64,000 nucleotides of DNA from Nitrosospira multiformis. Its GTDB lineage: Bacteria; Pseudomonadota; Gammaproteobacteria; Burkholderiales; Nitrosomonadaceae. Position 1 is the first letter of the stretch; each line of letters opens with the position of its first letter. A program made the translations under genes and the position numbers. The stretch is taken from contig NZ_FOHI01000001.1 of NCBI RefSeq assembly GCF_900111585.1, positions 186,001-250,000 on the forward strand, in the 5' to 3' direction. Below the pieces are notes generated by a model. It did no database searches and had not been told where the DNA came from. It was given only the letters and a program-made list of their open reading frames with translations. Of the stretch, positions 1,268 to 22,916 are shown one piece after another.

Positions 1268-1897
1268 CTATTAAGTGAGGCTATCAGGAACAGTTCACGG
1301 AACCTTGTTTCTACTCCCGAACGTTACGCTGGTCGCGCACTCAGGCTTGTTGAATTTAACAAATAGAGGGCGCAATAAATCTTAACTCGAAATCTTTGGG
1401 GATAACTTGATGATCCCCATCGCTCTAGATTCCCACCTATTACTTGAGCAACAGGGCCGCTTACTGTCGGGGAAATTGCCCGCCATCGAGTACCTGATTT
1501 ACCTTCACTACGATGATTTCCATCGCCTTTTCTTGATTGCATAGAACGTGGTAAGTAGACGCATATATTACGAGCGCGACAAGCAAAAGGAACTGTTTTA
1601 CAGGGACAAGTAATCAGTGTTTCAAAAACGCGGGGGACTAAGGCTGCTTACTGACCTCGTGGAAATATCCATACTCGCTGTTCGGTGTACCTAAGTCCAA
1701 TTGCTGGCTCAAAAATACGCACTTAGAATGACTGCGACCGCGAACACAGGTTCTTTTCCCAATCTGTTCATGGCAAAAGAGTGTGTTTTTTAAGTGTACC
1801 TGCTACTTGCCTTACTTGTTACCACCGATCGAGTATTTGCGAGCGGAATGGATTACAGGTCGACAAGCTGCTCGATTTAAATAGAGAAAAAAAGCAA
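1268..1897. other. Gap before zorA, no gene seen
   Basis: The stretch has no convincing reading frame on either strand. The zorA frame stays open back to 1781, but no good start with a ribosome binding site lies between 1781 and 1898. The Zorya promoter is expected here; I cannot pick clear -35/-10 boxes. Confidence 0.5.
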
Positions 1898-3895: not shown

Positions 3896-3897
3896 AA

Positions 3898-4605
3898 ATG
3901 CTTAGCCGGATTATTCTCAAGCGGGGTGCGAAACCGGAGGGAGAAAGTCCATTCTGGATTTCCTTCTCCGATCTTATGACGGCTCTGATGACGCTGTTTC
4001 TCGTTGTTATGGCAGTTACACTTATTGCTGTAACTAAAAGTGTGACTGCCGAAGAAGAAGCAAAAATTCAGCGAGAAAAGGATATTCGTGAACTCATGTC
4101 TCAAATTAAGGAGGCTTCGCGCGAGTTCAGAGAGGTCAAGGTCAACGAGTCCACTTACCGCATAGACCTTGGGGATGTTGTTCGCTTCGACAGTGGGCGA
4201 TATGACATTCAGGATCGAGAAGCGAAGTTTCTTCGAAAGTACATACCGGTGCTTCTAAAAGCACAGGAGTCACAAGTTGGTCGACGATGGATCCGACGTA
4301 TCGTTGTCGAGGGGTTTACGGATCAGGATGGTACCTACCTCTACAACCTCGGTCTTAGCCTCAACCGGAGCCGCAGCGTGGTATGCGTAATGTTTTCGCC
4401 ACAAAAAGCTGATGAGAAACAGCTTACTGATCACCAGAAGCGCCAGATTCGCGATCTCTTCTTGGTGGGAGGTTATTCCTTCAACTCGGTCCGAGCAAAG
4501 AAGGAGGAAAGTCGGCGTGTTGAGCTGAAGCTGGAATTCTGGGCTCTAAATGAAGACCCTGTCGTCAGCCCACTCATTGAGAATAAAGAGTTTGGCCAAT
4601 GCTGA
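3898..4605 (+). CDS. zorB: Zorya anti-phage protein ZorB (MotB/OmpA-like)
   Basis: ZorB pairs with ZorA, carries the ion-binding aspartate and anchors the motor to peptidoglycan. The 235-aa protein has a single membrane helix at about 24-45, with Asp25 in FWISFSDLMTALMTLF, the position equivalent to the MotB/ZorB channel Asp. The periplasmic part from about 85 onward is OmpA-like, including VEGFTDQDGTYLYN and an LSLNRSRSV segment typical of the peptidoglycan-binding fold. The gene starts 2 bp after zorA and overlaps zorC by 7 bp, so the three are translationally coupled. Confidence 0.9.
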   Translation: MLSRIILKRGAKPEGESPFWISFSDLMTALMTLFLVVMAVTLIAVTKSVTAEEEAKIQREKDIRELMSQIKEASREFREVKVNESTYRIDLGDVVRFDSGRYDIQDREAKFLRKYIPVLLKAQESQVGRRWIRRIVVEGFTDQDGTYLYNLGLSLNRSRSVVCVMFSPQKADEKQLTDHQKRQIRDLFLVGGYSFNSVRAKKEESRRVELKLEFWALNEDPVVSPLIENKEFGQC

Positions 4606-6338
4606 CTTTGCCGTCCATCGAATTACTTACGCATCAGCTTAAAGCTGCTATTGCCTCCATAGATTTTTCTGCAGAAGGGCTGGGAATGTCTCAGCTCGTA
4701 GAGAAGGCCTGTGCTGAATCAGAAAGGCTGTTCCAGGGATATGCGAAAGCCAAACCCTCTAAACAGGATGCGTATGCAGCAGCGCTAGCATTTATGCGTG
4801 GCCAGCAACTTGACATCCGTCAGCTCGATATGATCGCCAGTGCTCTAAGTGAGCCCATACGTGAGCAAGGAGGGGGGAGACCACTCGGTCACCAAAGGCT
4901 CCCCTCTCTACTCAAGCATTACGAGGCGGAAGCAGAAAAAGGAAACCTTTGGCGCCTCACTTGGTACGGGCTACTCAGTTCGTATTTCAGTTTTGAGCCA
5001 CAACGTGCTTTGGATGCAGAACTCTTGGGCTGGGAGCAGCTGCGTTCCCTGTTACACAAAACCTGGCCTCTAGTTGACAAACATGCGGGCGGGAATCTAG
5101 TTCCAGATTGGATTGCTGTTATGCGACGAGAGCCTCAGCTACTTACCAACCAACCGACCGACAAGTATGCCCAAGATTTCCTACAGGGACAAACTGAAGC
5201 GGTTGAGAGATTCGTAACAGATCTAGGTATTCCTCAAACAAGCTGGTTTTGGCATACACTCGTGCTAAGCGCAGTCGGTACAGCAACGAGGGCCAGCGAT
5301 AACGCATTCAGCAACCATATCCCTAGGCTCATCCAGCTCATCGAAGAAAGGCCTGTGTTCAGAGATGAGGCAATCGAGAAAATTCTCATTCGCTACCACA
5401 AGAGTGCTGTAACGCCTGTACATGAGCGCCTGAAGGACTACGTGATTCGCAAGGATGTCTGGAGAAACCCCAAGCTCAAGGCAGCGGGTATCGCCACAGC
5501 TTGGAATCGAGTACCAGACCCAGTCTGGCAAATGGTCCTCGAGTGGGTGAACGAACGCAGCCTTCGAGACTTCTTCGATATCCTCGCAGCCCGCAATGGG
5601 GCCGATGAAGGCCGTTTGTCGTTCTGGTCGAAATACCTGAAGCAAATAACTTGGACACGGCTAATCTTCAGTTCCGATACCTTAATCCTTGCACGCCAGC
5701 AGCAGAGTATTCGAGATCTTATTGCCCGTGAAGAAGGGTCATACGCTACCCTTACTTCGAAGCGAGATGTCGATGCATTCATGATGCAAATAGGAAAATA
5801 CATTGTCATTGAATTCAGTAAGAAGCCAAACGCATGTTACGTGTACTCCTTAGAGAGTCTAAAGTTTGACCGTAACGCAAGGCGTTACTCAGGCACAACA
5901 GATGATTTGGCCTACGGCTTCCATGGGGGAGCGGAGGCGCGCATTATTCACAGAAATGGTTGGCAAAATCAGGCCCGCTATGAGCTTGAAGCTCTTGGGA
6001 TCCGACCTGATACCTTGGCCACTCGGCATGCTGGAGATAACGTGCAACACCCTGGCTCTGCGCAGACTCTCAGGGGGAACTACAGTGAGGCGTCTCTCTC
6101 CTATGGCACAAGCAGGAGTCCTCGACGCGAGCCTCCTGGGACTCCTTTTTCCATGAACGAGCTTGAGCGTTTAGTCGCCCGATATAGAGATGCTCGTATC
6201 AAAGACAGGCGAGGAGTCAGCGGTGGCCGACTGTGGGTCGAAGATCCTTCACAACACAGCACACTTGCAACTCAACTTCAGGCGTATGGTTTCCGGTGGG
6301 GGAATGCGCGCGCAGCTTGGTATTACCCGGAAAGCTAA
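4599..6338 (+). CDS. zorC: Zorya type I protein ZorC (EH-signature domain)
   Basis: ZorC is the cytosolic effector-side protein specific to type I Zorya, with an EH_Signature domain, and is reported to bind DNA. The 579-aa product is soluble and helical. The central block from about 205 to 365 (WFWHTLVLSAVGTATRAS, then DEAIEKILIRYHKSA and FWSKYLKQITW) has the conserved His/Trp/Glu spacing I associate with this family. The last 90 residues are Arg-rich. Gene order and overlap with zorB (7 bp) and zorD (shared A of TAATG) strongly support the call; the domain match itself is from memory. Confidence 0.85.
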   Translation: MLTLPSIELLTHQLKAAIASIDFSAEGLGMSQLVEKACAESERLFQGYAKAKPSKQDAYAAALAFMRGQQLDIRQLDMIASALSEPIREQGGGRPLGHQRLPSLLKHYEAEAEKGNLWRLTWYGLLSSYFSFEPQRALDAELLGWEQLRSLLHKTWPLVDKHAGGNLVPDWIAVMRREPQLLTNQPTDKYAQDFLQGQTEAVERFVTDLGIPQTSWFWHTLVLSAVGTATRASDNAFSNHIPRLIQLIEERPVFRDEAIEKILIRYHKSAVTPVHERLKDYVIRKDVWRNPKLKAAGIATAWNRVPDPVWQMVLEWVNERSLRDFFDILAARNGADEGRLSFWSKYLKQITWTRLIFSSDTLILARQQQSIRDLIAREEGSYATLTSKRDVDAFMMQIGKYIVIEFSKKPNACYVYSLESLKFDRNARRYSGTTDDLAYGFHGGAEARIIHRNGWQNQARYELEALGIRPDTLATRHAGDNVQHPGSAQTLRGNYSEASLSYGTSRSPRREPPGTPFSMNELERLVARYRDARIKDRRGVSGGRLWVEDPSQHSTLATQLQAYGFRWGNARAAWYYPES

Positions 6339-9300
6339 TGGGTCTCCTTGGTCTTTTCCGGCGCAAAAAGAAAGGCGGTTCCACTGCAACACTCACCTCT
6401 GTATGGACTCCACAAGGGATACAAATAAGTTTTGTTTCGCCCTTGGCTGAGGCCTCTCCGGAAGCGCTGCTAGATGCTGTCCATGGAGCACCGGCAGAAG
6501 ATGCGTTACTTGGGGCGTATTTGGCTCAGCTAGCCATCGAGGGGCTATGCCAAATACAAGCCGACACTGTGCTGCTTCCTTGGAAGCAAGTGTACGATCT
6601 CTTGAAGTCTCCTGAGCATGAAGGCGCGATCCAGTTTCTCGCGCTTCCACCACAACGAGCTCTTCGCCCCATCCTAAGCCATGAAGCGAGCCTATCAGAT
6701 TCAAACTTTGAGCTTCATATTGATGGGTGGGTCGAAGACCAAGACCCGGTGATGTTCAGCCAATTACAAGGTGCTGTCGCATTGGTGGATGGTGAATCTT
6801 GCTTGCTGTCAGAAGCCGCCTGGACGATTTCCGATGCTGTTAGATTGTTTGGTCTCCGTGGTCCGGAAATGCGTTCCCAGCATGAGAATGAATTGGCTTG
6901 GGGAAGGATTCGAGCAATGGCGGAAGCCGTGGACGCATTTTACGCAAGTCCATATCTTGAAAGCACGTATGTTCTTACACCGCAAACCCTTAGATTGCCA
7001 TTGATTAAGGAGGAAACATCATTCGGGCGTGTATTCACTGTTTCACCAACATTTGAAGATGCACCTGAGGGATGGCTAAGGGCATTCGATGGATTCAATG
7101 CTGTCCAACCTCATTACGATCTGACACGTGGAGGTAGGGGGCGAATACGCATTGTTATTTCAGAACCGGTTCAGAAAGTTCTGCAAGTCATCAAACGTGA
7201 TATGCCTGGGCGACGTGTTTCAGGGTCCAGGGCAGAGAAGTTTATTCACAATCCTTGGGCTTTCCTTGGAGACGCGGCTCATGAAGTTCTTCGAGAAGAA
7301 GATTTCATGCAGGACAAAGCGGAAGCTGGCGCCGTTGCCGCGATCTTCACTCTTGTACCTCGCATGTCAAATGAGCGTATAGAACACGTCGATTTGGTGG
7401 TAACAGAATCTTTCGGAAATGGCTCATCATGCACAGATGTGAAGAGTTTTGAGAGGGCCATGCAGCTCGAGGAATTCTTGAAGATGCTGGAAACGGCTCT
7501 ACGCGAGGACCGAGAACGTTTCCCATGGAATGAATATGATTTAACGATTGATGCAGAATCAACGCTCCAGCTTGAGCAAGGAATGCAATTGGCTTTCCTT
7601 TGGAGAAACCAGCCTGCCGGGCACATTTCGTTCGAGGATATATATCAGCTGGAAGGTTACAGCAACCGGATCGAAGGGATTGGTGTAGCCAAACCTATCT
7701 ACGTACCCATTCTGCAAAAACCGAACGTAGGGGATGAGAGCAAGCAGGGTTGGTTGCCTGGCGACCTTACCCCCATGGTTCGAGTAATGCTTCAGGGACA
7801 CGAAGGTCAAGTAATAATACCGCTTAGTAAGATTTGGGTAGACGAGTTTGAGAGTCAGATTGTCCGTGCGGAGAGGGCGGGGGTATCCGAGGTCAGAAAC
7901 GAGGCCCTTCCGACGCTCATCTCTACCATTCAAGGGCGCAACCTTGTCGATACTTTCCGAACCATGCTCGGGGTGCAGGACCGAGTAAAAGGAGATGGTT
8001 CATCTAAGCCCAAGAACAAACGTCTCTCTCGCGAAACCTTGCTAGTCAAAACTAATTTTCATGGTGTTGACTATCAGGAAGAGCGTAGGGTGTCGCTCGC
8101 TCTGCCTGAAGGAACTAAAGCACAACTGCCAGTATCGCTGCGAACTAATATTGGGCTAAAGAAGCACCAGTTGAATGGGGTTGCCTGGTTCCAGCACTTG
8201 GTGTCTAAAGCTCCTCATGACTGCCGTGGAGCGCTGCTCGCCGACGATATGGGGCTGGGAAAGACGCTCCAGCTCCTGACTCTATTGGGTTGGTATTATG
8301 AGCAGCATTGCAATGCCACACCTTCAATCATCTTTGCTCCGAAGAGCCTGCTCGAGAACTGGGCTAATGAGGCAAAGAAGTTCTTTACACCGTCTTTCCC
8401 GGAAATCCTGGTTCTATATGCGGACGAATTGAGGGAGCGCAAGCAACCTCCTGGTTTAATAGACGAACAATTGCATTCCAAGGGGGTGGTGGATTTGCTA
8501 AGGCCGCGATGGGTGGGTGACGCGAAAATTATCGTCAGTACCTACGAAGTTCTCATCAGCTACGAGTTCTCCTTAGCTAAACAACCTTTCGCTTTTGTCA
8601 TCTGCGATGAGGCTCAACGTATCAAGACGCCGGGGACCCAAGTGACCTTGGCGGCAAAGAAGCTCAAGGCGGATTTTCGTATCGCTTGCACCGGTACACC
8701 TGTAGAAAACTCCTTAGCTGATCTCTGGTGTCTGTTCGACTTTGTTCAGCCTGGGCTACTCGGGGCACTTGAGGAATTTGGTAAAACTTATCGACGGCCC
8801 ATCGAGTGCGAAACGGAGGAACAGAAGCAAGCTTTGGCTAGACTGCAATCCCTTATAGCACCTCAGACCCTACGCCGCACTAAAGCCGATATTGCTGATG
8901 AACTGAAGAAAAAACTGTTTGGATGGAAAACAGCCCATACCAATGTATTGCGGTTCAAGGAGGGACTGGGGCAGCACGAACGTCTGGAAATTGCTATTTC
9001 AGAATATCAACGCATTCTCTACAAGGGCGGCCTGAAAAAGCTACAGGAAGCAAACAAAGAAATTGATGGGAAAAAGCGAGCACGGCTTTCGTTTGGTGCG
9101 CTTCACTTAATGAAAGCTGTATGCGCAGAACCTTATTGCTTGCCAGGCACAAAATTTCTACCAGAAAAGCTAGGACGTGATGTGCACCTCACTAATTCAC
9201 CTAAGCTGCAATGGGTACTTGAGCAACTGGAGCAAGTCAAAGCGGCTGGCGAGAAGGCAATCATCTTCACTGAATTGCGGGAAGCGCAGGCAGCCTTGTA

Positions 9301-10189
9301 CTACTTCCTTCGAGAAACCTTCAGTTTGAAGCCTTTTATTATTAATGGTGATTCGCAGGGGCGACAAGGATATATCGATCGCTTCTCTCAAGCTCCAGGC
9401 TTTGGCGTCATTATCCTTTCTACCTTGGCAGCCGGTGCTGGGCTAAATGTTACAGCAGCAAATCATGTTTTTCACTTTACGCGAGCATGGAACCCAGCCA
9501 AGGAGAATCAGGCCTCGGACCGAGCCTATCGTATCGGTCAGGAACGGGATGTCTTCGTTTATTGCCCTACCGTAGTTGCGGATGACTTCCACACTTTCGA
9601 ATTTCGCCTTGATGAGTTACTCAAGAAGAAGGCAGGGCTTGCTGATTCCACCATAGATGGCGGCGGAATGGCTTCGATGCTTAATGGTTCTGGCCGTGAT
9701 GCCACATTTAGCGATTTTATTGATGAAAGTGGAGATGGGGCAGCAATTCCTCGTCGGATTCTCAATATCGATGATGTAGATCGCATGGATGGCTTTAGCT
9801 TCGAGGTGTTTTGCAACCTCCTCTGGTCGAAGCAGGGATATCAGTCATTCATTACTCCTAAACAAGGGGGTGACGGCGGCATTGATGTGGTTGCATTGAA
9901 GGGACGTGAAGGCGAACTGCTGCAATGCAAAAGCTCCATCAATAGTGAAGTTGGCTGGGATGCCATCAAGGAGGTAACTGCGGGAGCGGCTCTCTATCAA
10001 GCTCGTTTCGCAGGTACTCGCTTCAGAAAAATTGCCCTTACTAACCAGAGATTTACGTCCGGAGCTATAACTCAGGCCGAAGCAAACAAGGTTCAGCTAA
10101 TTGTTCGCGATCGGCTTGACGAGCTATTAAAGGCTCACCCCATCACTAATCATGAATTCGATGAAGAGTTGATCGTGTGGAGCCATTAA
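6338..10189 (+). CDS. zorD: Zorya type I protein ZorD (Snf2 helicase fused to Mrr-like nuclease)
   Basis: ZorD is the nuclease/translocase that degrades phage DNA after ZorAB signalling. The 1,283-aa protein has an N-terminal half of about 600 residues without named motifs. A Snf2/SWI2 ATPase follows: Walker A DDMGLGKT near 640, box II DEAQ near 756, and a C-lobe with ILSTLAAGAGLN and QASDRAYRIGQ. The last 110 residues are an Mrr-like PD-(D/E)xK domain with Asp near 1182 (GGIDVVA) and QCKSS near 1195. The ATG at 6338 overlaps the zorC stop as TAATG; the frame is open 105 bp further up, but the coupled start is preferred. Confidence 0.92.
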   Translation: MGLLGLFRRKKKGGSTATLTSVWTPQGIQISFVSPLAEASPEALLDAVHGAPAEDALLGAYLAQLAIEGLCQIQADTVLLPWKQVYDLLKSPEHEGAIQFLALPPQRALRPILSHEASLSDSNFELHIDGWVEDQDPVMFSQLQGAVALVDGESCLLSEAAWTISDAVRLFGLRGPEMRSQHENELAWGRIRAMAEAVDAFYASPYLESTYVLTPQTLRLPLIKEETSFGRVFTVSPTFEDAPEGWLRAFDGFNAVQPHYDLTRGGRGRIRIVISEPVQKVLQVIKRDMPGRRVSGSRAEKFIHNPWAFLGDAAHEVLREEDFMQDKAEAGAVAAIFTLVPRMSNERIEHVDLVVTESFGNGSSCTDVKSFERAMQLEEFLKMLETALREDRERFPWNEYDLTIDAESTLQLEQGMQLAFLWRNQPAGHISFEDIYQLEGYSNRIEGIGVAKPIYVPILQKPNVGDESKQGWLPGDLTPMVRVMLQGHEGQVIIPLSKIWVDEFESQIVRAERAGVSEVRNEALPTLISTIQGRNLVDTFRTMLGVQDRVKGDGSSKPKNKRLSRETLLVKTNFHGVDYQEERRVSLALPEGTKAQLPVSLRTNIGLKKHQLNGVAWFQHLVSKAPHDCRGALLADDMGLGKTLQLLTLLGWYYEQHCNATPSIIFAPKSLLENWANEAKKFFTPSFPEILVLYADELRERKQPPGLIDEQLHSKGVVDLLRPRWVGDAKIIVSTYEVLISYEFSLAKQPFAFVICDEAQRIKTPGTQVTLAAKKLKADFRIACTGTPVENSLADLWCLFDFVQPGLLGALEEFGKTYRRPIECETEEQKQALARLQSLIAPQTLRRTKADIADELKKKLFGWKTAHTNVLRFKEGLGQHERLEIAISEYQRILYKGGLKKLQEANKEIDGKKRARLSFGALHLMKAVCAEPYCLPGTKFLPEKLGRDVHLTNSPKLQWVLEQLEQVKAAGEKAIIFTELREAQAALYYFLRETFSLKPFIINGDSQGRQGYIDRFSQAPGFGVIILSTLAAGAGLNVTAANHVFHFTRAWNPAKENQASDRAYRIGQERDVFVYCPTVVADDFHTFEFRLDELLKKKAGLADSTIDGGGMASMLNGSGRDATFSDFIDESGDGAAIPRRILNIDDVDRMDGFSFEVFCNLLWSKQGYQSFITPKQGGDGGIDVVALKGREGELLQCKSSINSEVGWDAIKEVTAGAALYQARFAGTRFRKIALTNQRFTSGAITQAEANKVQLIVRDRLDELLKAHPITNHEFDEELIVWSH

Positions 10190-10496: not shown

Positions 10497-10856
10497 ATGA
10501 GTGAATTAGAGAGCGGTGAAACAATACAAATCGTTATAGAAAACCCTGCTTGGATTACACGGAAGAAGTTTGAAATTTCTTCTATACACCTGAGGTTTTT
10601 TCCGGCAGACGCACTTGGTGCTCGAGGAGAGGCAGACAAAGAAAAGTGGCCGGAGCGTGGCAAACCGGTTGAGTTTGATTATGGCATTGCAAAGAGTATT
10701 AATGATATCGCGACGTGGAAAAGCGGAAAAATGCGTCCCAGAGATAATCGGGTTATGAGAAATTTTTTAGAGGCAAACAAATTTGCCTTGGGCGATATTG
10801 TATGCATCACCCGGACTGATGAACGGAGCTACAAAGTCTCTCTTATTAAACGCTGA
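10497..10856 (+). CDS. Small protein coupled to mcrB (possible DNA-recognition accessory)
   Basis: The 119-aa product has a beta-rich look and ends with a basic block, SGKMRPRDNRVMRNFL, followed by a GDIVCI strand. This layout recalls B3/EcoRII-N-like pseudobarrel DNA-binding domains, but I cannot assign it firmly. ATG start after a purine-rich stretch (GAGGAGA). Its TGA is one base before the mcrB ATG, so the two are almost certainly translated together. I infer an accessory or specificity role in the McrBC system. Alternatively it is an N-terminal domain of McrB that has become a separate gene. Confidence 0.65.
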   Translation: MSELESGETIQIVIENPAWITRKKFEISSIHLRFFPADALGARGEADKEKWPERGKPVEFDYGIAKSINDIATWKSGKMRPRDNRVMRNFLEANKFALGDIVCITRTDERSYKVSLIKR

Positions 10857-10857
10857 G

Positions 10858-13086
10858 ATGGCCCAACCATTTATTGATGAAGTTTGGGGATTTTCCCAAG
10901 TATTAACTCAAGAAGAAATTGCAAATGGAAAGTTGGAGTTCAACCTTAGATATCGAGACCAACTATCAAGGTATCAAGAAAACGAGGGCGTTTTTCGTTT
11001 TCTAACAGATGACGGAATCCTCTTTAACGCAACAATTTCATCACTTGGACTTCCTTTTATTCTCAGTACGGAAATACAAGAATATTTTTTGCGAAAAGAC
11101 GTAAGTGTTGGCACAACTATTTATTTGGAATTCACCGATCCATCAAGAATTATGATTCGCAATTCTCCCCGGGATAAAGCAGTTCAGAAAAATTTTGACA
11201 AAATGGCTGGAAGCAATGGAGTTATGCCTAACGGTGATTTGAATACCATTTTGTATGGTCCTCCCGGAACCGGTAAAACCTACACGACCATAGAGTTGGC
11301 TTTGGAGATTCTCGACCCTGGATTTTTAGCAGATTATAAAGAGGATCGGACGGCGCTAAAGAAACGCTTCGATGCCTTAGTTAGCACCGGGGATGTTCGG
11401 TTTGTAACGTTCCATCAAAGTTTTAGCTATGAGGATTTTGTCGAAGGCCTCAGAGCGAGGAACGATGAGGATGGCAAGCTGCATTATGAGGTCGTGGACG
11501 GTGTGTTTAAGAATATTTGTACGTCAGCCGTCGCACGTGTAACTCAGCAGGCGGAAGCTCCTCTTGATCTTCGAGGCCGACGAATCTGGAAGATGTCTCT
11601 GGGTAACACTCAAGGAGTTGATGCTTATATCTATGATGAATGCATTGAACGGGGTTGCGCGCTTCTAGGCTGGGGAGGAACGATCGATTTTTCCGGGTGT
11701 AGAAGCCGAGAAGAGGTCTATCAGCGATTCACGGCGGCTAAAGAAGTGATTAGCAAGGATTCGTACGCTGTTTCTGCGGTTACCACGTTCCTCCTGAAAA
11801 TCAAACCCGGCGATTTACTCATAGTCAGCGAAGGTAATTTCAAGTTTCGAGCCATTGGTGAGGTAATGGGGGATTACATCTATCTGAATAGAGAAGAGCA
11901 AGGAGATCACTATGGCCAGTGCCGTCGCGTATCTTGGTTGCGGGTCTACGAACCAGCTTTGCCCCTCGATCAACTGATGAATAATCAGTTCAGTCAGATG
12001 ACCCTCTATGAACTCAAGGACACGGCAATTGATATGGCTAAGTTGGAGAAACTATTGACTCGAAGTACATCTGCCCCCATTGATTCAGCTACTGGCACGT
12101 TATTTCAAGTGGGGGAGCGCCTTGGTGGCTATCTCGTCCTCCGAGCGACATCGGAAGTTATTGAACTAGAGAAGCCCAATGGCAAGCACCTGCCCTTTAC
12201 AATCGAATTTCTAGAGACCCTGGCCGGCTACATACGTCAGGGAAAGCTGACTATCAATGATATTCGCGAGAAGCGCGTTTTTGACAAAGTACCAGATACC
12301 CAGCTAGAGCCTTATCTCGTGAATGGATATTACAATGTACTACCGTCTTTGGTTGAGCGGTTGTGCGGCAGTGCAAACGTAGTTGCAGAACCAAACTCGA
12401 TAGGTGAGAAGGGGACGAACACGAAGGTACTTATCATCGACGAAATCAATCGGGGCAATGTCTCTCGTATTTTCGGTGAGTTGATTACACTGATCGAGCC
12501 ATCGAAGCGTCAGGGTAACGATGAGGCGCTGGAAGTCGTCCTCCCCTATTCGAAAGAACGATTCAGCGTTCCGAATAATGTTTATTTAATCGGCACTATG
12601 AACACGGCCGACAGGTCGCTGGCTGGGTTAGACATTGCCCTGCGTCGCCGCTTTACCTTCAAGGAAATACCCCCCGATTACAGCCTCTTCGATGGAGTGC
12701 ATGTTGAAGGTGTCTCGATCGGGGAGTTGCTCCAAACAATGAATCAGCGGATCGAAGCACTGTTGGATCGCGATCACTGTATTGGGCATGCCTATTTTCT
12801 ACCATTGCGGGACAACAGAACTGTCTCACACTTGGCATCTATCTTTCGGCAAAAGATACTTCCGTTACTACAAGAGTATTTTTTCGAGGACTGGGAACGC
12901 ATCCGTTGGATATTGAATGATCATCGTAAGGAGACTGAACACCAGTTTATTACGCAGGGCATTTCCTCCTCACTTGAATTGTTCGGTAATAACGTCGAGG
13001 GCCTTGGTAACGTTAAGTCGCAATGGGAGCTACGTATCGAATCGTTTAATACCATCGAAAGCTACCGGGGCATAATCGGAGTTTAG
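10858..13086 (+). CDS. mcrB: McrB-type GTPase of a type IV restriction system, with an EVE/PUA-like insert
   Basis: McrB is the AAA+ GTPase that recognises modified DNA and drives the McrC nuclease. The 742-aa protein has a beta-rich N-terminal domain (about 1-110), Walker A GPPGTGKT at about 134-141, Walker B VLIIDEINRGN at about 524-534, and the McrB signature MNTADRS at about 581-587. Between Walker A and B lies an unusually long insert. It holds an EVE/PUA-like block from about 240 to 365 (WKMSLGN, LLGWGG, LKIKPGDLLIVSEGNFKFRA) and a second domain from about 420 to 505. An EVE-like pocket would suit reading of a modified base. The gene starts 1 bp after the small upstream gene; mcrC follows 2 bp after its stop. 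Confidence 0.9.
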   Translation: MAQPFIDEVWGFSQVLTQEEIANGKLEFNLRYRDQLSRYQENEGVFRFLTDDGILFNATISSLGLPFILSTEIQEYFLRKDVSVGTTIYLEFTDPSRIMIRNSPRDKAVQKNFDKMAGSNGVMPNGDLNTILYGPPGTGKTYTTIELALEILDPGFLADYKEDRTALKKRFDALVSTGDVRFVTFHQSFSYEDFVEGLRARNDEDGKLHYEVVDGVFKNICTSAVARVTQQAEAPLDLRGRRIWKMSLGNTQGVDAYIYDECIERGCALLGWGGTIDFSGCRSREEVYQRFTAAKEVISKDSYAVSAVTTFLLKIKPGDLLIVSEGNFKFRAIGEVMGDYIYLNREEQGDHYGQCRRVSWLRVYEPALPLDQLMNNQFSQMTLYELKDTAIDMAKLEKLLTRSTSAPIDSATGTLFQVGERLGGYLVLRATSEVIELEKPNGKHLPFTIEFLETLAGYIRQGKLTINDIREKRVFDKVPDTQLEPYLVNGYYNVLPSLVERLCGSANVVAEPNSIGEKGTNTKVLIIDEINRGNVSRIFGELITLIEPSKRQGNDEALEVVLPYSKERFSVPNNVYLIGTMNTADRSLAGLDIALRRRFTFKEIPPDYSLFDGVHVEGVSIGELLQTMNQRIEALLDRDHCIGHAYFLPLRDNRTVSHLASIFRQKILPLLQEYFFEDWERIRWILNDHRKETEHQFITQGISSSLELFGNNVEGLGNVKSQWELRIESFNTIESYRGIIGV

Positions 13087-13088
13087 GC

Positions 13089-14351
13089 ATGAAGGGGACG
13101 GTCACTGTGCGAGAGTATGCTCGCCTAACTCCCGGTCCCACGCGCAACTCCCTCGATGAAGCGACTGTAGCTCAAGTCGACTTCGATTGGCTGTGTTGTC
13201 TAAGCGCTTCCTTTCGAAATCGCGGTGCACCCCTACTTCAAATTGATAACCGTCAATGGTTGCGTCTAGATAATTTTGTCGGGGTCATCGAGATGCCCAG
13301 CGGCGGATCCCTCGAAATTCTTCCCAAAGACTTTGATGCTTCGGCCAATATAGAGACGTCGAGAAAACTGCTGTGCCGCATGATACAGGGGGCCATGGAC
13401 CTTCCGGTCCGAGATGTTGGGGCAGCCGATTTGGCGTTACTTGATGCACCCGTAAGCGAATGGGTTATTCGCCAGTTCTTGCTGGCCGTGGATCGGCTAG
13501 TGAAGCGCGGGTTGAGATTCGACTATGCTCAAATTGAGGAGGAGCAGCGGTTCTTGCGTGGCCAACTCGACGTGGGGCGGCAATTACGTCAGCCAGAAGG
13601 GAGGCAGCACCTCTTCTGGATTAGACATGACATATTCTTGCCGGATGGGCCCGAGAATCGGCTAATTAAATCTGCGTTGGTGATCGCAGGCGCCAATACA
13701 CAAGATGCAGAAAATTGGCGGCTTGCACACGAATTGCTTGGATTGATTGCGGAAATACCTATATCTCAGCAAATCGGAGAGGATTTCAAGCGCTGGCGAC
13801 GTGATCGGCTTATGGCCCATTATAAGCCGGTCCGCCCCTGGTGCGAACTTATCCTACGACAGCAATTACCTTTTGCTGGAAGCGGGGTATGGCGTGGTAT
13901 CAGTCTACTGTTCCCAATGGAGAAACTATTCGAACGTTATGTGGAAGCCAGTTTGAGACAAGCGTTACCTGGGGATATACGATTTATTTCACAGTCGACC
14001 AGCAAATATCTCTGCATTCACGAAGGGCAGGGTTTCTTCCAATTGCGACCTGATATATTGCTTTCAAGACAAACACAGAGCTGGATCCTTGATACTAAAT
14101 GGAAACTTTTGGATACTCTTGATCTGGTCAATCATTATGGCTTAAGTCAATCTGATTTCTATCAGTTGTTCGCCTATGGTCAGAAGTATCTGGGTGGTAA
14201 AGGAGACGTTATTCTAATATTCCCGAAAACAATAAGGTTTTATGAGCCCTTACCCCCATTTTATTTCTCCGAAGCACTTCGCCTATGGGTGTTGCCTTTT
14301 GATCTAGAAAAAAAACAACTAATCGAACCAATTCTTAAATTGTTACCTTAA
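13089..14351 (+). CDS. mcrC: McrC-type nuclease subunit of a type IV restriction system
   Basis: McrC is the endonuclease partner that stimulates McrB GTP hydrolysis and cuts DNA. The 420-aa protein has an N-terminal beta-rich domain of the McrC kind (VREYARLTPG, then WLRLDNFVGVIEMPSGG). A C-terminal PD-(D/E)xK nuclease follows, seen as LRPDILLS and WILDTKWKLL around residues 320-340 (D, then D-x-K). It starts 2 bp after mcrB, so both subunits are made from one message. Length and order match classical mcrBC. Confidence 0.9.
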   Translation: MKGTVTVREYARLTPGPTRNSLDEATVAQVDFDWLCCLSASFRNRGAPLLQIDNRQWLRLDNFVGVIEMPSGGSLEILPKDFDASANIETSRKLLCRMIQGAMDLPVRDVGAADLALLDAPVSEWVIRQFLLAVDRLVKRGLRFDYAQIEEEQRFLRGQLDVGRQLRQPEGRQHLFWIRHDIFLPDGPENRLIKSALVIAGANTQDAENWRLAHELLGLIAEIPISQQIGEDFKRWRRDRLMAHYKPVRPWCELILRQQLPFAGSGVWRGISLLFPMEKLFERYVEASLRQALPGDIRFISQSTSKYLCIHEGQGFFQLRPDILLSRQTQSWILDTKWKLLDTLDLVNHYGLSQSDFYQLFAYGQKYLGGKGDVILIFPKTIRFYEPLPPFYFSEALRLWVLPFDLEKKQLIEPILKLLP

Positions 14352-16756: not shown

Positions 16757-17428
16757 ATGAAGCGACTCGACGAGAACATTGGCAGGCAAACGGCTGTCGA
16801 ATTTAGTAACTTTGTGGCTGGTCGCAAATTTAAAACTATCCTCGCAGACCCGCCTTGGCAATTTCAAAACCGGACCGGGAAGATTGCCCCAGAGCATGGG
16901 CGCCTTAGTCGGTATGGCACTTTGACGCTCGACGACATCAAAGCGATGCCGGTCGAGTCCGCTGCAGAAGATACTGCACATTTATATCTCTGGGTGCCGA
17001 ATGCACTACTTCCAGAGGGTCTTGCTGTCATGGCTGCTTGGGGATTTAACTACAAGAGCAACTTGGTATGGCACAAGTTGCGTAAGGATGGTGGCAGTGA
17101 CGGCCGTGGTGTCGGTTTCTACTTCCGAAATGTCACTGAGCTTATCTTGTTTGGAGTACGCGGTAAGAATGCACGCACTCTTGCCCCAGGCCGCACCCAA
17201 GTCAACTACATTGGAACGCGTAAGCGGGAACACTCTCGCAAACCCGATGAGCAGTACGACATTATCCAAGCTTGCAGTCCAGGACCGTACCTGGAATTGT
17301 TCGCCCGGGGAGAGCGCCCTGGCTGGACTATCTGGGGCAATCAAGCTGACGAGAGTTACGTTCCTACATGGTCGACTTATTCAAACCATTCGCGCAGCCA
17401 GATTTTCGACTTGGAGCCTACGAAGTAG
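16757..17428 (+). CDS. MT-A70-family DNA adenine N6-methyltransferase
   Basis: The 223-aa protein has the MT-A70 catalytic motif DPPW (ILADPPWQFQNRTGK, near residue 35), followed by HLYLWVPNALL, GFNYKSNLVWHK and GRGVGFYFRNVTELIL. PGPYLELFARGERPGWTIW close to the end completes the SAM-binding fold of this family. MT-A70 enzymes in bacteria often serve as modification subunits (M.MunI type). The ATG has a GAGG ribosome binding site. It converges on a BglII-like endonuclease gene 14 bp away, so it probably protects the host sites of that enzyme. A phage-derived orphan methyltransferase is the alternative. Confidence 0.88.
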   Translation: MKRLDENIGRQTAVEFSNFVAGRKFKTILADPPWQFQNRTGKIAPEHGRLSRYGTLTLDDIKAMPVESAAEDTAHLYLWVPNALLPEGLAVMAAWGFNYKSNLVWHKLRKDGGSDGRGVGFYFRNVTELILFGVRGKNARTLAPGRTQVNYIGTRKREHSRKPDEQYDIIQACSPGPYLELFARGERPGWTIWGNQADESYVPTWSTYSNHSRSQIFDLEPTK

Positions 17429-17442
17429 CGGGGCTAAACATC

Positions 17443-18288
17443 CTAGGATGTTTCAGTATGGCCTGAATCATCCGATAGATCCGCTTCGCTAATTTCGTCT
17501 ACTCGGGCAGCATCGAATTGTACAATTGACGCAGGTAAGCCAATTAACAGGAGCGGGCATGGGTTGCCTACTCCTCGCTCTACGCGGTGAATGAGCTTTG
17601 CCCAATGAGTTGTCGCTGCGCCATATTTGTTTGATACGAAGTTGTCGACCCAGGCGTTTGCAAATGGTATCGGGTCTCGTGTTCGATTTACTCGCTTTTC
17701 AATATTTGCCCGTTGCCGAGGCGTTGGTATAACGCCTGCCGCGGCGAGAGAGTCAAAATCAACAATATTCCGTTCGGTGGCAAAACGCGTAACCATTTCC
17801 GACATTCTCTCTTGGAGGCTTGATCCGCGAGTTATTAAGACTCCAACTGATATTGCGCCTTCTACATGTAAGCGCTTGAAATTCTCAAGGTCCCTATCAA
17901 AAAATGGATCTTTGTTGTTCCATTCAATTTCGCAAGCGATAACTCCTGCCGGGTACCGCTTTACATGGTCAACTTCATGTGAGGTAGCTTCGCGCGGTAC
18001 TCCATCAATCGTTTTCTCGAGAATAAAGTTGTGTTTTCTCCAGCCCAGGCCTGCTAAAGCATGGCGTAGGCGTTGGGTGAACTTGGTTTCCCCCCCGCCG
18101 GAACCGATAACTTCAGTAATGGGTAGATCCATTTCCAATAGAATCTGATTAATTTCAGCGCTTGCGTCGGGAAAGTCGCCCGCCAATATGGCTGCCGCGT
18201 GAGAGACGTAAAGAACCTCGAAACCTCGTCCAGTCAGATCGTGGGACGGTTTGGTAGTGATTGGCTGTGTGCGCTCATCTAAGGCCAT
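17443..18288 (-). CDS. BglII/BstYI-like type II restriction endonuclease
   Basis: The 281-aa protein matches the BglII-family layout. A central PD-(D/E)xK-type core reads HEVDHVKRYPAGVIACEIEW (Asp, then Glu-x-Glu), followed by NNKDPFFDRDLENFKRLH and GAISVGVLITRGS. BglII and BstYI cut inside GATC-cored sites, so a similar target is a reasonable guess, but specificity cannot be read from sequence. I chose the ATG at 18288, which has an AGGAGG site just upstream, over a TTG 57 bp earlier. It converges with the MT-A70 methyltransferase, forming a restriction-modification pair with separate promoters. Confidence 0.8.
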   Translation of the reverse strand: MALDERTQPITTKPSHDLTGRGFEVLYVSHAAAILAGDFPDASAEINQILLEMDLPITEVIGSGGGETKFTQRLRHALAGLGWRKHNFILEKTIDGVPREATSHEVDHVKRYPAGVIACEIEWNNKDPFFDRDLENFKRLHVEGAISVGVLITRGSSLQERMSEMVTRFATERNIVDFDSLAAAGVIPTPRQRANIEKRVNRTRDPIPFANAWVDNFVSNKYGAATTHWAKLIHRVERGVGNPCPLLLIGLPASIVQFDAARVDEISEADLSDDSGHTETS

Positions 18289-18804
18289 GTGGCCCTCCTC
18301 TAGCGAAATAAAAATGGAAAACTGCCTCTGACCGAAGTAACTCAATTAGGGGGTAGGAACCAGTACGAGCGGTGGTGGTAGCGAGTCCCCCAAGGTCGAC
18401 GCCGGCACTTATGGCTTCAACGGCAAGGTTTTCGTGCGGCGCTAGTGTCCCGCCATTGCCCCATAGAGCTATACCCTACCGTCTGTAGACCAACCCTCCC
18501 CGGAAAAGAGGCACTCCTACTCTCGGTTGTCTGCAACTTCCAAAAAATTTTCCTAAAAAGATATTTACACTATCTCATCAGTAATCCTGAGTCCATTTCA
18601 TCACTGCCAGAAAATCGTAAAGCGACGTTTAGAGCTAGGGGGGTGTAGTATGATAAAGGAATTTAATGGACGTACAGCGGTAAGGGAAGGCATTTCTGCC
18701 GGGTAGTTTGGCAGAGCGTTAGGGTCAAAACTGGGACTTTGCTAGAACGACCCTGGCACTACTATCGGGGGCGCATCAATATACCCATATTAAATTCCAA
18801 AAGG
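18289..18804. other. Gap between endonuclease and DUF2290 genes
   Basis: AT-rich in its right half. On the plus strand around 18360-18445 a short frame (ESPKVDAGTYGFNGKVF) looks like the tail of a lost gene, but it has no start and no recognised family. Nothing else seen. Confidence 0.35.
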
Positions 18805-19485
18805 TTAAAGTGCGATAGGTAAGTGCCAGCTTAACGAACCAAATAATTTGTCGTCATCGGTTAAGCGATCAGCACTTCCCCAATCTTCCGCTTCACGGAA
18901 ATGAGCAAATTCAGACCAGATTTTTGGGTAAGCAGTTCTAATTATTAGGCGCATAAACCTCGAAGGCTCCAGCGCACGTTGAACTGGCATTCTAAAATTT
19001 TCCGTACCCAAATGAAGATGAGTACAAGAATGATTCTCTGCCTCTTGCTCAGGAGAGTAATCAAATCGCAATGGCGCCTGCATAGAGAGCGTCTCTACTG
19101 GAGAGGTTAAAACTAGCTCATTAATGGTAGCGAATTCCAATTCTTCCGGCGAAAACACAACTGGGCATGGATACCATACAAGTCTGCTTGTTTTGATCTC
19201 ATTTCTTGTGGTCTGGACGTCATAAGACATTTGGATTAGCGACCCGTCTGTCAACATAAATTGAAAGTGCCTCCCCTCAAGGAAAAGCAAATACTCCTTT
19301 ATATTGGAGGTCGAAATATCGGATAGTTCAGGCCTAGTACCAGTAGTTGCCCACGTGATTCTCTGCCTTCCTCGCTCTGAGCGTTCTATTACACTGCCGT
19401 TCCAATCTCTGAGCAAATTGCATTCAGCTAAACGCTGCTTCAGTGATTCAAACGAGCTAAGAATTGCTTTTGGTGTCGCCTTCAT
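18805..19485 (-). CDS. DUF2290-family protein, partner of the upstream helicase
   Basis: The 226-aa soluble protein has the pattern I associate with DUF2290: a mid-region strand pair (FQFMLTDGSLIQMSYDV), then THLHLGTENFRMPVQRALEP, then a C-terminal FMRLIIRTAYPKIW helix. The function of the family is unknown. ATG start, with AAGGCGG just upstream. It begins 9 bp after the stop of the UvrD-like helicase gene, on the same strand, so the two form an operon. I infer that the pair is a defence or repair module because it closes an island of known systems. Confidence 0.65.
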   Translation of the reverse strand: MKATPKAILSSFESLKQRLAECNLLRDWNGSVIERSERGRQRITWATTGTRPELSDISTSNIKEYLLFLEGRHFQFMLTDGSLIQMSYDVQTTRNEIKTSRLVWYPCPVVFSPEELEFATINELVLTSPVETLSMQAPLRFDYSPEQEAENHSCTHLHLGTENFRMPVQRALEPSRFMRLIIRTAYPKIWSEFAHFREAEDWGSADRLTDDDKLFGSLSWHLPIAL

Positions 19486-19494
19486 TTACCGCCT

Positions 19495-21621
19495 TTATTT
19501 AACACCCTTACGAAGCATTTCTGCCAATCCCGGGGGAAGCTCTTCTAATGCTACTTCTCCATTTAGAATTCGCTGCAATAGTCTTTCGGCTGATTTGATT
19601 TCTTTTTTCACAGCTTGCTTTTCTCGGGAAGTACGTTCTCGATACGCTGTCTTAAGCCTTTCAATTTGTTGCTCTGTTGGATAAACGAAGGTTAAATCAA
19701 AATTATCTGCCGCAATTCCACGCATTTCATCTGCGATTAACTGCATCTCTTGCCCAACTCCACACACCCTTACCCAAGCTTTTGCTCTAGTAAGCGCTGT
19801 GAAAAGCATATTGCGTTTCCTGCTTAACTCATATCCACCCTGACAGAATTCAGTGTTAATTACATAAACTAGAGGCGCTTCATTTCCTTTCGCTCTATAG
19901 ATTCCGCTCATAGCAACAGAGTTATCTATAAATACGATATCCAAGCTCCCTGTAACGCCAATAAGATGGCTCTTAATTTCAAACTTCTTAAGTTCGCTTG
20001 AAAGCTTCAATGCAATTTTTGGCGCATTTACCGAATCTGGAATGACAACTAATATGTCATTTGGATCAAGCTCCTGAATTGTTAGCACTCTTTTTATATC
20101 AGCCGCGACCCATGCAGCTTGGGTAACGTCGTCTGGGAAAACATGCCAAGTAACGGAGTCAGCAGGCGTTAAGCACTCATTAAAAAAAGGTGCGCTTCTA
20201 TCCTCTTCGCGTTTAAGTCTTACAGGTGCACCTAAAGCTAGCTGGCCCTGTATAGGCTCATAGCCAATTTCCTTCCAAAAATCCGGCTCCCTGAACATTT
20301 GCACGAACTGGCCACCACGTTTAGTACCCAAGCCAAGACCAAGTGCCAGAGACAACAGCCACGGAGGGTTTCGGTAACAGATAGGCAGTAAGATGTCTTG
20401 TTGTGGCTGTCCCTCAACGTTGTTAATTTCGATTAAAGGATTGCCTTCTTGGTCTACACCGAACAGTTGGTCCAATGTAGGCATCGAGGTGTCATTTAAT
20501 GTTTGAAGCTCGTCATATGCCCAAACAATCCGTTTAGGTGCTTTGGTTGCTGCATATGCCAGTTGAAAAAATGGAGCTGGAAAATCCTGCGCTTCATCAA
20601 TCAACATGTAATCAAAAACTGGCTCGAATGAAGTCCTCGCTAAATGAGCCACTAATTCGGCGCATGCACCGGAAAACGCGTTTGGATAACCGTATTTATG
20701 CCTTGCCACACCAAAAGGCATAGGCGCAGCACCTGCAAGAGCAGCTATCGTTGAATAGACCCCTGCGTCCAGCTCGCCACCCCAAGCATGTAATATTTTT
20801 AGTTTTTCCCAGTTTGGCTCATCGAAAACCTGATCAAAATAGAAGCGTCGTATCAGGCTCTTAAATTGCTGATATAAGGATCTTGTATTAAACGTAACAA
20901 CAATTTCCGCTTCGGGGTCATTCGCGTGTAAATATGCTGCCTTTAAAGCTAAGATAATAGTTTTACCACTACCAGCTAAGCCTCGAATTCTCTGTGGCCC
21001 TTCCGGAGATTCAATTGCTGCGTTTTTTTGCCATCGGTCCAAATTCGCTATTTGTGATTCAAGGAATTTAATGACCGCTCCCATTGAATCTTCTTTGCGA
21101 ACATTTAATCGTTTCTTTTTTGGTTTTAACGCAGCAGTTTTCTGAATTGCCGCATTAAGTGGCTTAAAGAAATGACGTTCTAAAGGAGCAAAGTTAGCTA
21201 ATTCTGCGAGTAAATTATCTCTTGTTACTAGTCTTGGAACATTTACATTCTGTACCTCATACGGTAAGAACGTAATTACTTGTATTGGAAAAGCTAACCT
21301 TATTCCGTCCTCTTCCAACAATTCCTCGTACGCCACTAATCTAGAATTTAATTTTCTTAAAAGTTCTCTTTGACGAGCTTTAATCGCGGCTTCCATGTCT
21401 CCTGGCGGCAAATTAAAGAACTCTTGGGATGAGAGATCAAAGATTACTGCGCCAGTTTCGATAGATGTCAGCAGCGCATCTGTTACTGCCGAGGCGTCTT
21501 CACTACCGAATACGGGATAGCCAACATAAAGTGTTCCCTCCCAGTCTTGCTCGCGCAATAAATCCACAACAGCTTCTACAGCTTGCGGATTGGTTTTTTT
21601 CCCGTAGACGATGTCTAACAT
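19495..21621 (-). CDS. UvrD-like superfamily I helicase of a candidate two-gene defence module
   Basis: The 708-aa protein has SF1 motifs: Walker A GLAGSGKT near 218, motif II IDEAQDFP near 340, ICYRNPPW as motif III/IV, and RNMLFTALTRAKAW near 645 as motif VI. The first 190 residues form a separate domain (PVFGSEDASAVTDALLTS) that resembles a degenerate NERD/nuclease-like fold, without an obvious lysine; that is a guess. A coiled-coil-like basic tail ends the protein. The DUF2290 gene follows 9 bp downstream. Known SF1 defence helicases (for example of Gabija) have other partners, so this pair does not match a system I can name. Confidence 0.82.
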   Translation of the reverse strand: MLDIVYGKKTNPQAVEAVVDLLREQDWEGTLYVGYPVFGSEDASAVTDALLTSIETGAVIFDLSSQEFFNLPPGDMEAAIKARQRELLRKLNSRLVAYEELLEEDGIRLAFPIQVITFLPYEVQNVNVPRLVTRDNLLAELANFAPLERHFFKPLNAAIQKTAALKPKKKRLNVRKEDSMGAVIKFLESQIANLDRWQKNAAIESPEGPQRIRGLAGSGKTIILALKAAYLHANDPEAEIVVTFNTRSLYQQFKSLIRRFYFDQVFDEPNWEKLKILHAWGGELDAGVYSTIAALAGAAPMPFGVARHKYGYPNAFSGACAELVAHLARTSFEPVFDYMLIDEAQDFPAPFFQLAYAATKAPKRIVWAYDELQTLNDTSMPTLDQLFGVDQEGNPLIEINNVEGQPQQDILLPICYRNPPWLLSLALGLGLGTKRGGQFVQMFREPDFWKEIGYEPIQGQLALGAPVRLKREEDRSAPFFNECLTPADSVTWHVFPDDVTQAAWVAADIKRVLTIQELDPNDILVVIPDSVNAPKIALKLSSELKKFEIKSHLIGVTGSLDIVFIDNSVAMSGIYRAKGNEAPLVYVINTEFCQGGYELSRKRNMLFTALTRAKAWVRVCGVGQEMQLIADEMRGIAADNFDLTFVYPTEQQIERLKTAYRERTSREKQAVKKEIKSAERLLQRILNGEVALEELPPGLAEMLRKGVK

Positions 21622-21797: not shown

Positions 21798-22620
21798 TGA
21801 ACCGCCCCGGGTTTTGAGGAGGCTCCGACATCTGAGAGAATGGAGCCATGAAGAAATCAAACAAGTTTTCCCCCGAGGTACGCGAGCGTGCTGTGTGCAT
21901 GGTGCTTGAGCACCGTGGCGAGTACCGGTCCATGTGGGCAACCATTGAGTCCATTGCGCCCAAGATAGGGTGTGTTCCGCAGACCTTGCATGAATGGGTA
22001 CGCAAACATGAGGTTGACGCAGGCATGCGTGATGGAGTGGGCAGCACTGAGCGTGAGCGAGTGAAGGCGCTGGAGCGTGAAGTTGGGGAGTTGCGCCGCG
22101 CCAACGAGATTTTGCGGCTGGCCCGCGCGTTTTTCGCCCAGGCGGAGCTCGACCGCCGATTCAAGTCCTGAGAGATTTCATCGACTAGCATCGGGATACC
22201 TACGGGGTCGAGCCGATTTGCAAGTTGCTGCAGATCGCCCCGTCTGGCTATCGACGTTATGCCGCACAGCAGAGGAATCCTGCATTGCGTTGCGCACGTG
22301 CCAAGCGTGATGACATTCTGATGCTCCAGATTGAGTGGGTTTGGCAGGCCAACATGCAAGTCTACGGCGCTGACAAAGTCTGGCGTCAGCTTAATCGTGA
22401 AGGAGAGTGCTTGGCGCGCTGCACAGTCGAGCGGCTTATGAAACGCATGGAGGTGCGCGGCGTGGCAAGATTGTACGTACCACGATTGCCGATACGGCAG
22501 CGCCTTGCCTATTGGACCGGCTCAATCGGCAGTTCAAAGCAAACCGTTCTAATCAGCTTTGGGTCCCAGACTTTACCTATGTTTCGAGTGATCTCTTGTT
22601 TATACGCGACTTAAAATCCC
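21798..22620 (+). mobile_element. Truncated, decayed IS3-family insertion sequence
   Basis: The left end appears at 21798 as TGAACCGCCCCGGGTTTTGA, typical of IS3-family (IS51-like) termini. OrfA (21848-22171, 107 aa) is intact with a helix-turn-helix ([19 protein letters not shown]). OrfB follows but carries a TAG at 22186, a frameshift near 22470, and stops after NQLWVPDFTYVSS near 22600, before the second and third DDE residues. No right end is visible. The element is dead and marks the edge of the defence island. Confidence 0.85.
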
Positions 22621-22916
22621 TTGTACAGAGTAAGAAAAGCGCTTTTAGCTGGGAGGGAGGTTAGCCTTTTCGATTGGTATGAGGCATATAACAAGGAATA
22701 AGAAGCTTTCAGCTATAAATGTGGTCCCCCTCGTCCTAAAGTGGCCGATGTAAGATGGCGAATCGCCATCTAGTCGTTCTGAAGTTCGTCATAACATTTT
22801 CAGGAAGTAAATAGAATCATCGCCAGTTATCGCAGCGGCAGAAAATTCCTTGGCAAGCATGGTTCATCGCTCGGGTTGCTTAGAAGATATTGAGAAATTT
22901 AAAGCGGAGCACTACC

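Follow-up and report, generated by a model that had tools for sequence, protein, structure and literature searches.

A divergent Helicase + DUF2290 anti-phage system in Nitrosospira multiformis, and a hypothesis for its mechanism

The anti-phage system known as "Helicase + DUF2290" was assayed against phage T7 by Rousset et al. 2022, in a survey of hotspots in P4-like satellites, and a pair homologous to the one that we describe here conferred resistance (PMC9122126). Later publications use the names helicase-DUF2290 (as in PADLOC) or Rst_HelicaseDUF2290 (as in DefenseFinder) (PMC10855318, PMC11811056, PMC12390725), and both families of the system are present in PADLOC-DB (PDLC03002 and PDLC02998). 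PA1372/PA1371 from Pseudomonas aeruginosa PAO1 were described as a Helicase + DUF2290 pair as well (PMC11637435). In that strain, the loss of PA1372 abolishes the SOS response that is induced by a plasmid, along with the plasmid's fitness cost (PMC4410645). We treat PA1372/PA1371 as the same system because of how the literature describes them, not by sequence, and their phenotype is a conflict with plasmids, not with phages. In the papers on DUF2290 that we consulted, its mechanism is unexplored.

We analyzed 64,000 nucleotides from the genome of Nitrosospira multiformis (the window), which include a helicase gene and a DUF2290 gene (Table 1). An earlier note on this sequence had proposed that these genes form an undescribed defense system, unless the pair was already listed under a name. 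It is listed: since the pair is named in PADLOC and by Rousset et al. 2022 (PMC9122126), we reject the idea that the system is new. Instead, the window contains an intact but divergent member of a named two-gene system, and what we add is a testable hypothesis about the mechanism of that known system.

The evidence for membership is straightforward. PADLOC's helicase model (PDLC03002, "Helicase") matches the window's protein across its full length (675 bits, E = 2.2e-203, residues 1-705 of 708 aligned to positions 1-702 of 707), and the Pfam models UvrD_C_2 (44.6 bits) and ResIII both match above their cut-offs. The other protein matches Pfam's DUF2290 (PF10053) with 95 bits (E = 5e-27; the cut-off is 25) and PADLOC's PDLC02998 with E = 6.7e-29. 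The two genes are adjacent and on the same strand, with the helicase first, as in the described system. The earlier note's description of a clean two-gene operon was accurate: both reading frames are intact, with no stop or frameshift inside either gene, and they are 9 nt apart. The match to both PADLOC families, the location in a defense island, and the published assay of the same kind of pair against T7 all bear out its view that this is a defense operon. The window's copy lies on a divergent branch, with about 36-48% identity to most relatives; only Massilia sp. TS11 and one MAG have copies with 70% identity. The GC content of the pair is 0.43-0.44, while the mean for the window is 0.50.

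Table 1. Features of the Helicase + DUF2290 pair and of the neighboring defense island, in window coordinates.
Feature	Position	Strand	Evidence
Helicase of the pair, SF1 (UvrD-like), 708 aa	19495..21621	minus	ORF with ATG start
Helicase N-terminal domain, about residues 1-188, predicted degenerate PD-(D/E)XK / NERD-like fold	21058..21621	minus	AlphaFold2, VIA-align, residue table
Helicase Walker A, GLAGSGKT, residues 214-221	20959..20982	minus	sequence
Intergenic segment of 9 nt, AGGCGGTAA, with Shine-Dalgarno-like AGGCGG ahead of the DUF2290 ATG	19486..19494	minus	sequence
DUF2290 protein, 226 aa, ATG start; proposed effector enzyme	18805..19485	minus	ORF, Pfam, PADLOC
DUF2290 residues 140-165, invariant R140-x-D/E142...H152...H156...R165	18991..19068	minus	conservation in 36 sequences
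Zorya I ABCD	1781-10189		ZorA-D, best model for each at E of 1e-100 or lower
McrB-like AAA_5 NTPase and McrC-family protein	10783-14351		McrBC Pfam 6e-97
SIR2_2 protein	14662-16017		matches PADLOC candidate PDC-S25; LmuA and ThsA more weakly
MT-A70 adenine methylase, convergent with BglII-type endonuclease	16757-18345		endonuclease Pfam 3.6e-26

The other intact units from zorA to the pair were said to be defense systems, and this holds in substance. Besides Zorya I, there is an McrB/McrC-like pair, which is probably a type IV restriction system; a SIR2_2 protein, which is a candidate single-gene NADase defense; and the methylase and BglII-type endonuclease, which form a probable restriction-modification pair. 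(PADLOC has no match for this endonuclease.) About 200 nt upstream of the helicase's start is a truncated IS3-family element, at 21848-22664, in which OrfA (HTH_Tnp_1) is intact and OrfB is cut.

Two other defense systems, Gabija (the OLD nuclease GajA and the UvrD helicase GajB) and Hachiman (the nuclease HamA and the helicase HamB), share the two-gene logic of a nuclease or other effector along with a helicase. For Hachiman, the helicase has been shown to be the sensor (PMC12278908). However, the helicases of Gabija and Hachiman belong to other subfamilies, and DUF2290 is neither an OLD/TOPRIM protein nor a DUF1837 protein. GajB models match the window's helicase weakly (1e-4), and PADLOC found no match for GajA at the pair, where the partner is DUF2290.

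The two families are tightly linked. In one draw of 398 genomes from the phylum, 9 genomes encode DUF2290, and the same 9 have a strong match to the helicase (E below 1e-100). If relatedness is ignored, the probability of such an overlap arising by chance is 1/C(398,9), or about 1.6e-18, far too small for coincidence. The two genes are adjacent in all 8 of the genomes where this could be tested; in the ninth genome, the halves are on different contigs, near contig ends. Similarly, among 14 relatives of the helicase from IMG/VR, all those with a readable flank have DUF2290 directly 3'. (Using tblastn, we found no matches to DUF2290 in phage genomes.) In 35 of 35 pairs that we fetched, the order and the strand are the same. 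The spacing in the fetched pairs ranges from -32 to +43 nt, with one exception at 260 nt: a disrupted copy from Acinetobacter, in which the annotation splits DUF2290 into two parts.

The system is also patchy in its distribution. Within the genus, 2 of 23 genomes have it, and the second copy, which is from a sister species (L115:7648-10548, in G890), is a much more divergent pair that adjoins a probable gltX. Other pairs are found on viral contigs and on plasmids of many phyla, including an E. coli plasmid (CP057903). In one locus (L058:602-17619, on G766:C9), the pair lies within a complete DISARM operon, between DrmMI and DrmA: the order is DrmD, DrmMI, the helicase, DUF2290, DrmA, DrmB, and DrmC, and the reading frames all abut or overlap. 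In another (L100:330-14112, on Thioflavicoccus mobilis plasmid pTHIMO01), the pair lies within a BREX operon, with the methyltransferase on one side and a TA pair and PglZ on the other. The flanks of 12 relative loci include some type I RM genes, mad3, DndC, and DinG, along with mostly ordinary metabolism, and most of the 127 ORFs that flank chromosomal relatives are outside of PADLOC's families. Because most of the flanking genes have ordinary metabolic roles, the evidence from gene neighborhoods outside the window is modest.

We then considered what the two proteins might do. The helicase seems to have an intact ATPase: besides Walker A, it has a Walker B motif, DEAQD (residues 342-346), and G-x-GKT and DE-x-QD are invariant across an alignment of 18 helicases. 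The N-terminal domain, which was correctly noted as distinct, has no match to a Pfam model, yet its fold is predicted with confidence. An AlphaFold2 model of residues 1-188, built with 14 relatives, had a pLDDT of 83. Foldseek did not find any matches to this model at E <= 0.001, and the list of matches from VIA-align was overwhelmingly PD-(D/E)XK proteins, including Can2, Card1, EndoMS, Bax1, TnsA, McrC, BspD6I, and VRR_NUC. So, the N-terminus of the helicase is predicted to have a PD-(D/E)XK fold. As for the catalytic residues, D48 is retained, and the (D/E)xK site reads D62-L63-S64. Because the lysine is replaced by S64, we do not classify the domain as an active nuclease.

The top matches from VIA-align were the linker domains of human group III Schlafens: SLFN14 (Z = 8.9 over 135 residues), SLFN5 (8.7), and SLFN11 (8.5), with Z of 8.2-8.9 over 121-135 residues across matches to this group. 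The order of domains is the same as well, in that the Schlafen linker domain directly precedes an SF1 helicase (PMC9482658, PMC8789055), and by a simple offset, the conserved D48 would lie close to the D in SWAVDL, a motif of Schlafens. However, the window's protein begins at the linker-like domain and lacks the Schlafen core RNase. Furthermore, Can2 and VC1899 score within one Z unit of the Schlafen linker domains; because Can2 and other nucleases score so similarly, a specific kinship with Schlafens is not supported.

Other relatives are single proteins. Using tblastn against plasmids, we found full-length relatives of the helicase that do not have a DUF2290 neighbor, from Haloarcula, Gloeocapsopsis (WP_105221024), Deinococcus, and Leptolyngbya. 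They have an N-terminal PD-(D/E)XK domain followed by the same SF1 core. Several are annotated as "nuclease-related domain-containing DEAD/DEAH box helicase," and three of these unpartnered proteins have matches to NERD. In a joint alignment, the unpartnered helicases read PD..ECK or PD..EVK at the positions of the PD-(D/E)XK motif. In contrast, the partnered helicases retain the D, with few exceptions, and have lost the (D/E)xK. Overall, the triad D...ExK is present in 10 of 12 unpartnered helicases and in just 1 of 36 partnered helicases. (This count excludes L062, which ends at a contig end.) The sole partnered helicase with the triad is L061, and its near-identical sister L062 lacks the K. 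The window's helicase follows the pattern, with the K lost and DUF2290 present.

This contrast is clean, but it reflects one historical event, not many: in a tree of the helicase core, a single split with 100/100 support separates the partnered and unpartnered classes, so only one change is needed. Also, loss of the triad is not exclusive to the partnership with DUF2290, because two unpartnered helicases from haloarchaea, which are close relatives of each other (L102 and L108), lack the triad as well. Upstream of both of these, about 57-59 nt away, is a conserved protein of 243 amino acids (L102:2570-3301 and L108:1620-2351) that has two hydrophobic N-terminal segments and no match in Pfam. 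It may be another replacement partner. Another unpartnered NERD-helicase, on a plasmid of Haloarcula sp. CBA1115 (L091:3899-10031), is beside a Hachiman-like pair of DUF1837 and a DEAD/DEAH helicase.

DUF2290 itself is conserved in a way that suggests catalysis. Although many of its 36 members are near 20% identity to the window's protein, R140, H152, H156, R165, F177, and Y186 are invariant in all 36; position 142 is D or E in all 36; and D80 is conserved in the 35 of 35 rows that have a residue there. In the predicted structure (pLDDT 84), which is an antiparallel sheet flanked by helices, the charged and histidine residues lie on neighboring strands and resemble an active site. For this model, Foldseek searches of PDB and BFVD had no matches at E <= 0.001, which does not by itself mean that the fold is new, and comparing the sequence to PDB gave only chance-level matches. 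We considered if the model resembles a known nuclease fold and rejected this: the best matches from VIA-align (Z = 6.2) are to an actin-capping protein and PcyA, which are unrelated. By eye, DUF2290 and the TumE (DUF6516) toxins have colinear motifs (DG[AS]xIQ, RLA[FY], R[FY]D, DH..H, and P..F). However, comparing DUF2290 to TumE (PF20126) with hhalign gave P of about 0.2, even when 14 TumE sequences were used, and in a permutation test against the TumE profile, z ranged from 0 to 3 depending on the gap cost and was significant only if gaps were nearly free. We do not propose that DUF2290 and TumE are homologous, because comparing their profiles does not support it. Because the model does not match any known fold, describing DUF2290 as a nuclease rests on the conservation of these residues and on the argument that it was swapped in for a nuclease domain.

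Our preferred explanation, in which we have moderate confidence, is that the helicase serves as both sensor and motor, and that DUF2290, a separate enzyme that is most likely a nuclease, took the place of a nuclease that was once built into the helicase. The degenerate N-terminal PD-(D/E)XK domain (of the NERD type), ahead of the intact SF1 ATPase core, probably grips nucleic acid or the partner protein. The helicase would engage the DNA ends or forks that go along with replication of an invading phage or plasmid and would activate or recruit DUF2290, with its R-D-H-H-R-type center. DUF2290 would then supply the effector activity, most likely as a nuclease, that the single-protein relatives would obtain from their own intact NERD domain. 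In other words, we infer that DUF2290 is catalytic, a nuclease, and controlled by the helicase, with replication-linked DNA as the trigger. SOS induction and stalled replication in PAO1 favor DNA as the target. More tentatively, the Helicase + DUF2290 system might have arisen from a one-protein NERD-nuclease helicase, with the effector role moving to DUF2290, a new enzyme whose fold would be undescribed and whose active site would be R/D/H/H/R. In that case, the two genes would form a portable cartridge of sensor and effector that also fits into BREX and DISARM operons.

If DUF2290 is the effector, it might instead act on something other than nucleic acid, such as a nucleotide, NAD, or a protein, and lead to abortive infection once the helicase senses phage DNA. 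Effector chemistry varies among two-gene sensor/effector systems and differs freely between them, and the DUF2290 model does not match any nuclease fold. But the part that was swapped out is a nuclease domain, and the phenotype in PAO1 (SOS and stalled replication) points to DNA, so we consider a different kind of target unlikely. The roles could also be reversed: the helicase might itself be toxic, by unwinding or blocking replication forks, with DUF2290 holding it in check as a regulator or inhibitor, as an antidote would. The helicase is the larger protein and has intact ATPase motifs; the compensatory loss mutations in PAO1 fall in the helicase, PA1372 (PMC4410645); and the strict linkage of the two genes suits a toxin-antitoxin logic. 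We still think that this is quite improbable. An R/D/H/H/R set that is invariant down to about 20% identity looks like it is for catalysis, not binding. Also, DUF2290 is encoded second, with an overlapping stop and start in fetched pairs, so it would be made after the protein that it is supposed to restrain, and the single-protein relatives manage without any DUF2290.

Finally, the pair might have no role in defense: it could be an operon for DNA repair or another housekeeping function that lies in the island by chance. Its SF1 UvrD-like core would fit such a role, as would the finding that most of the 127 ORFs flanking chromosomal relatives are not from PADLOC families. But a housekeeping operon would not be expected to be so patchy (2 of 23 genomes in the genus and 9 of 398 in the phylum), to be carried by plasmids and viral contigs, to be inserted in BREX and DISARM operons, or to have a GC content of 0.43-0.44 in surroundings of 0.50. 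This reading is also contradicted by the T7 assay, in which a homologous pair was reported to give resistance (PMC9122126). We consider a housekeeping role to be very improbable indeed.

The Helicase + DUF2290 system is widespread: it is in 9 of the 398 genomes that we drew from the phylum, as well as on plasmids and viral contigs. The proposed mechanism for it, in which a separate DUF2290 enzyme takes the place of a built-in nuclease, offers tests at the level of residues, both in the helicase's dead nuclease domain and in the R-D-H-H-R residues that are invariant in DUF2290. This may also account for how the homologue in P. aeruginosa makes a plasmid costly, via DNA damage signaling.
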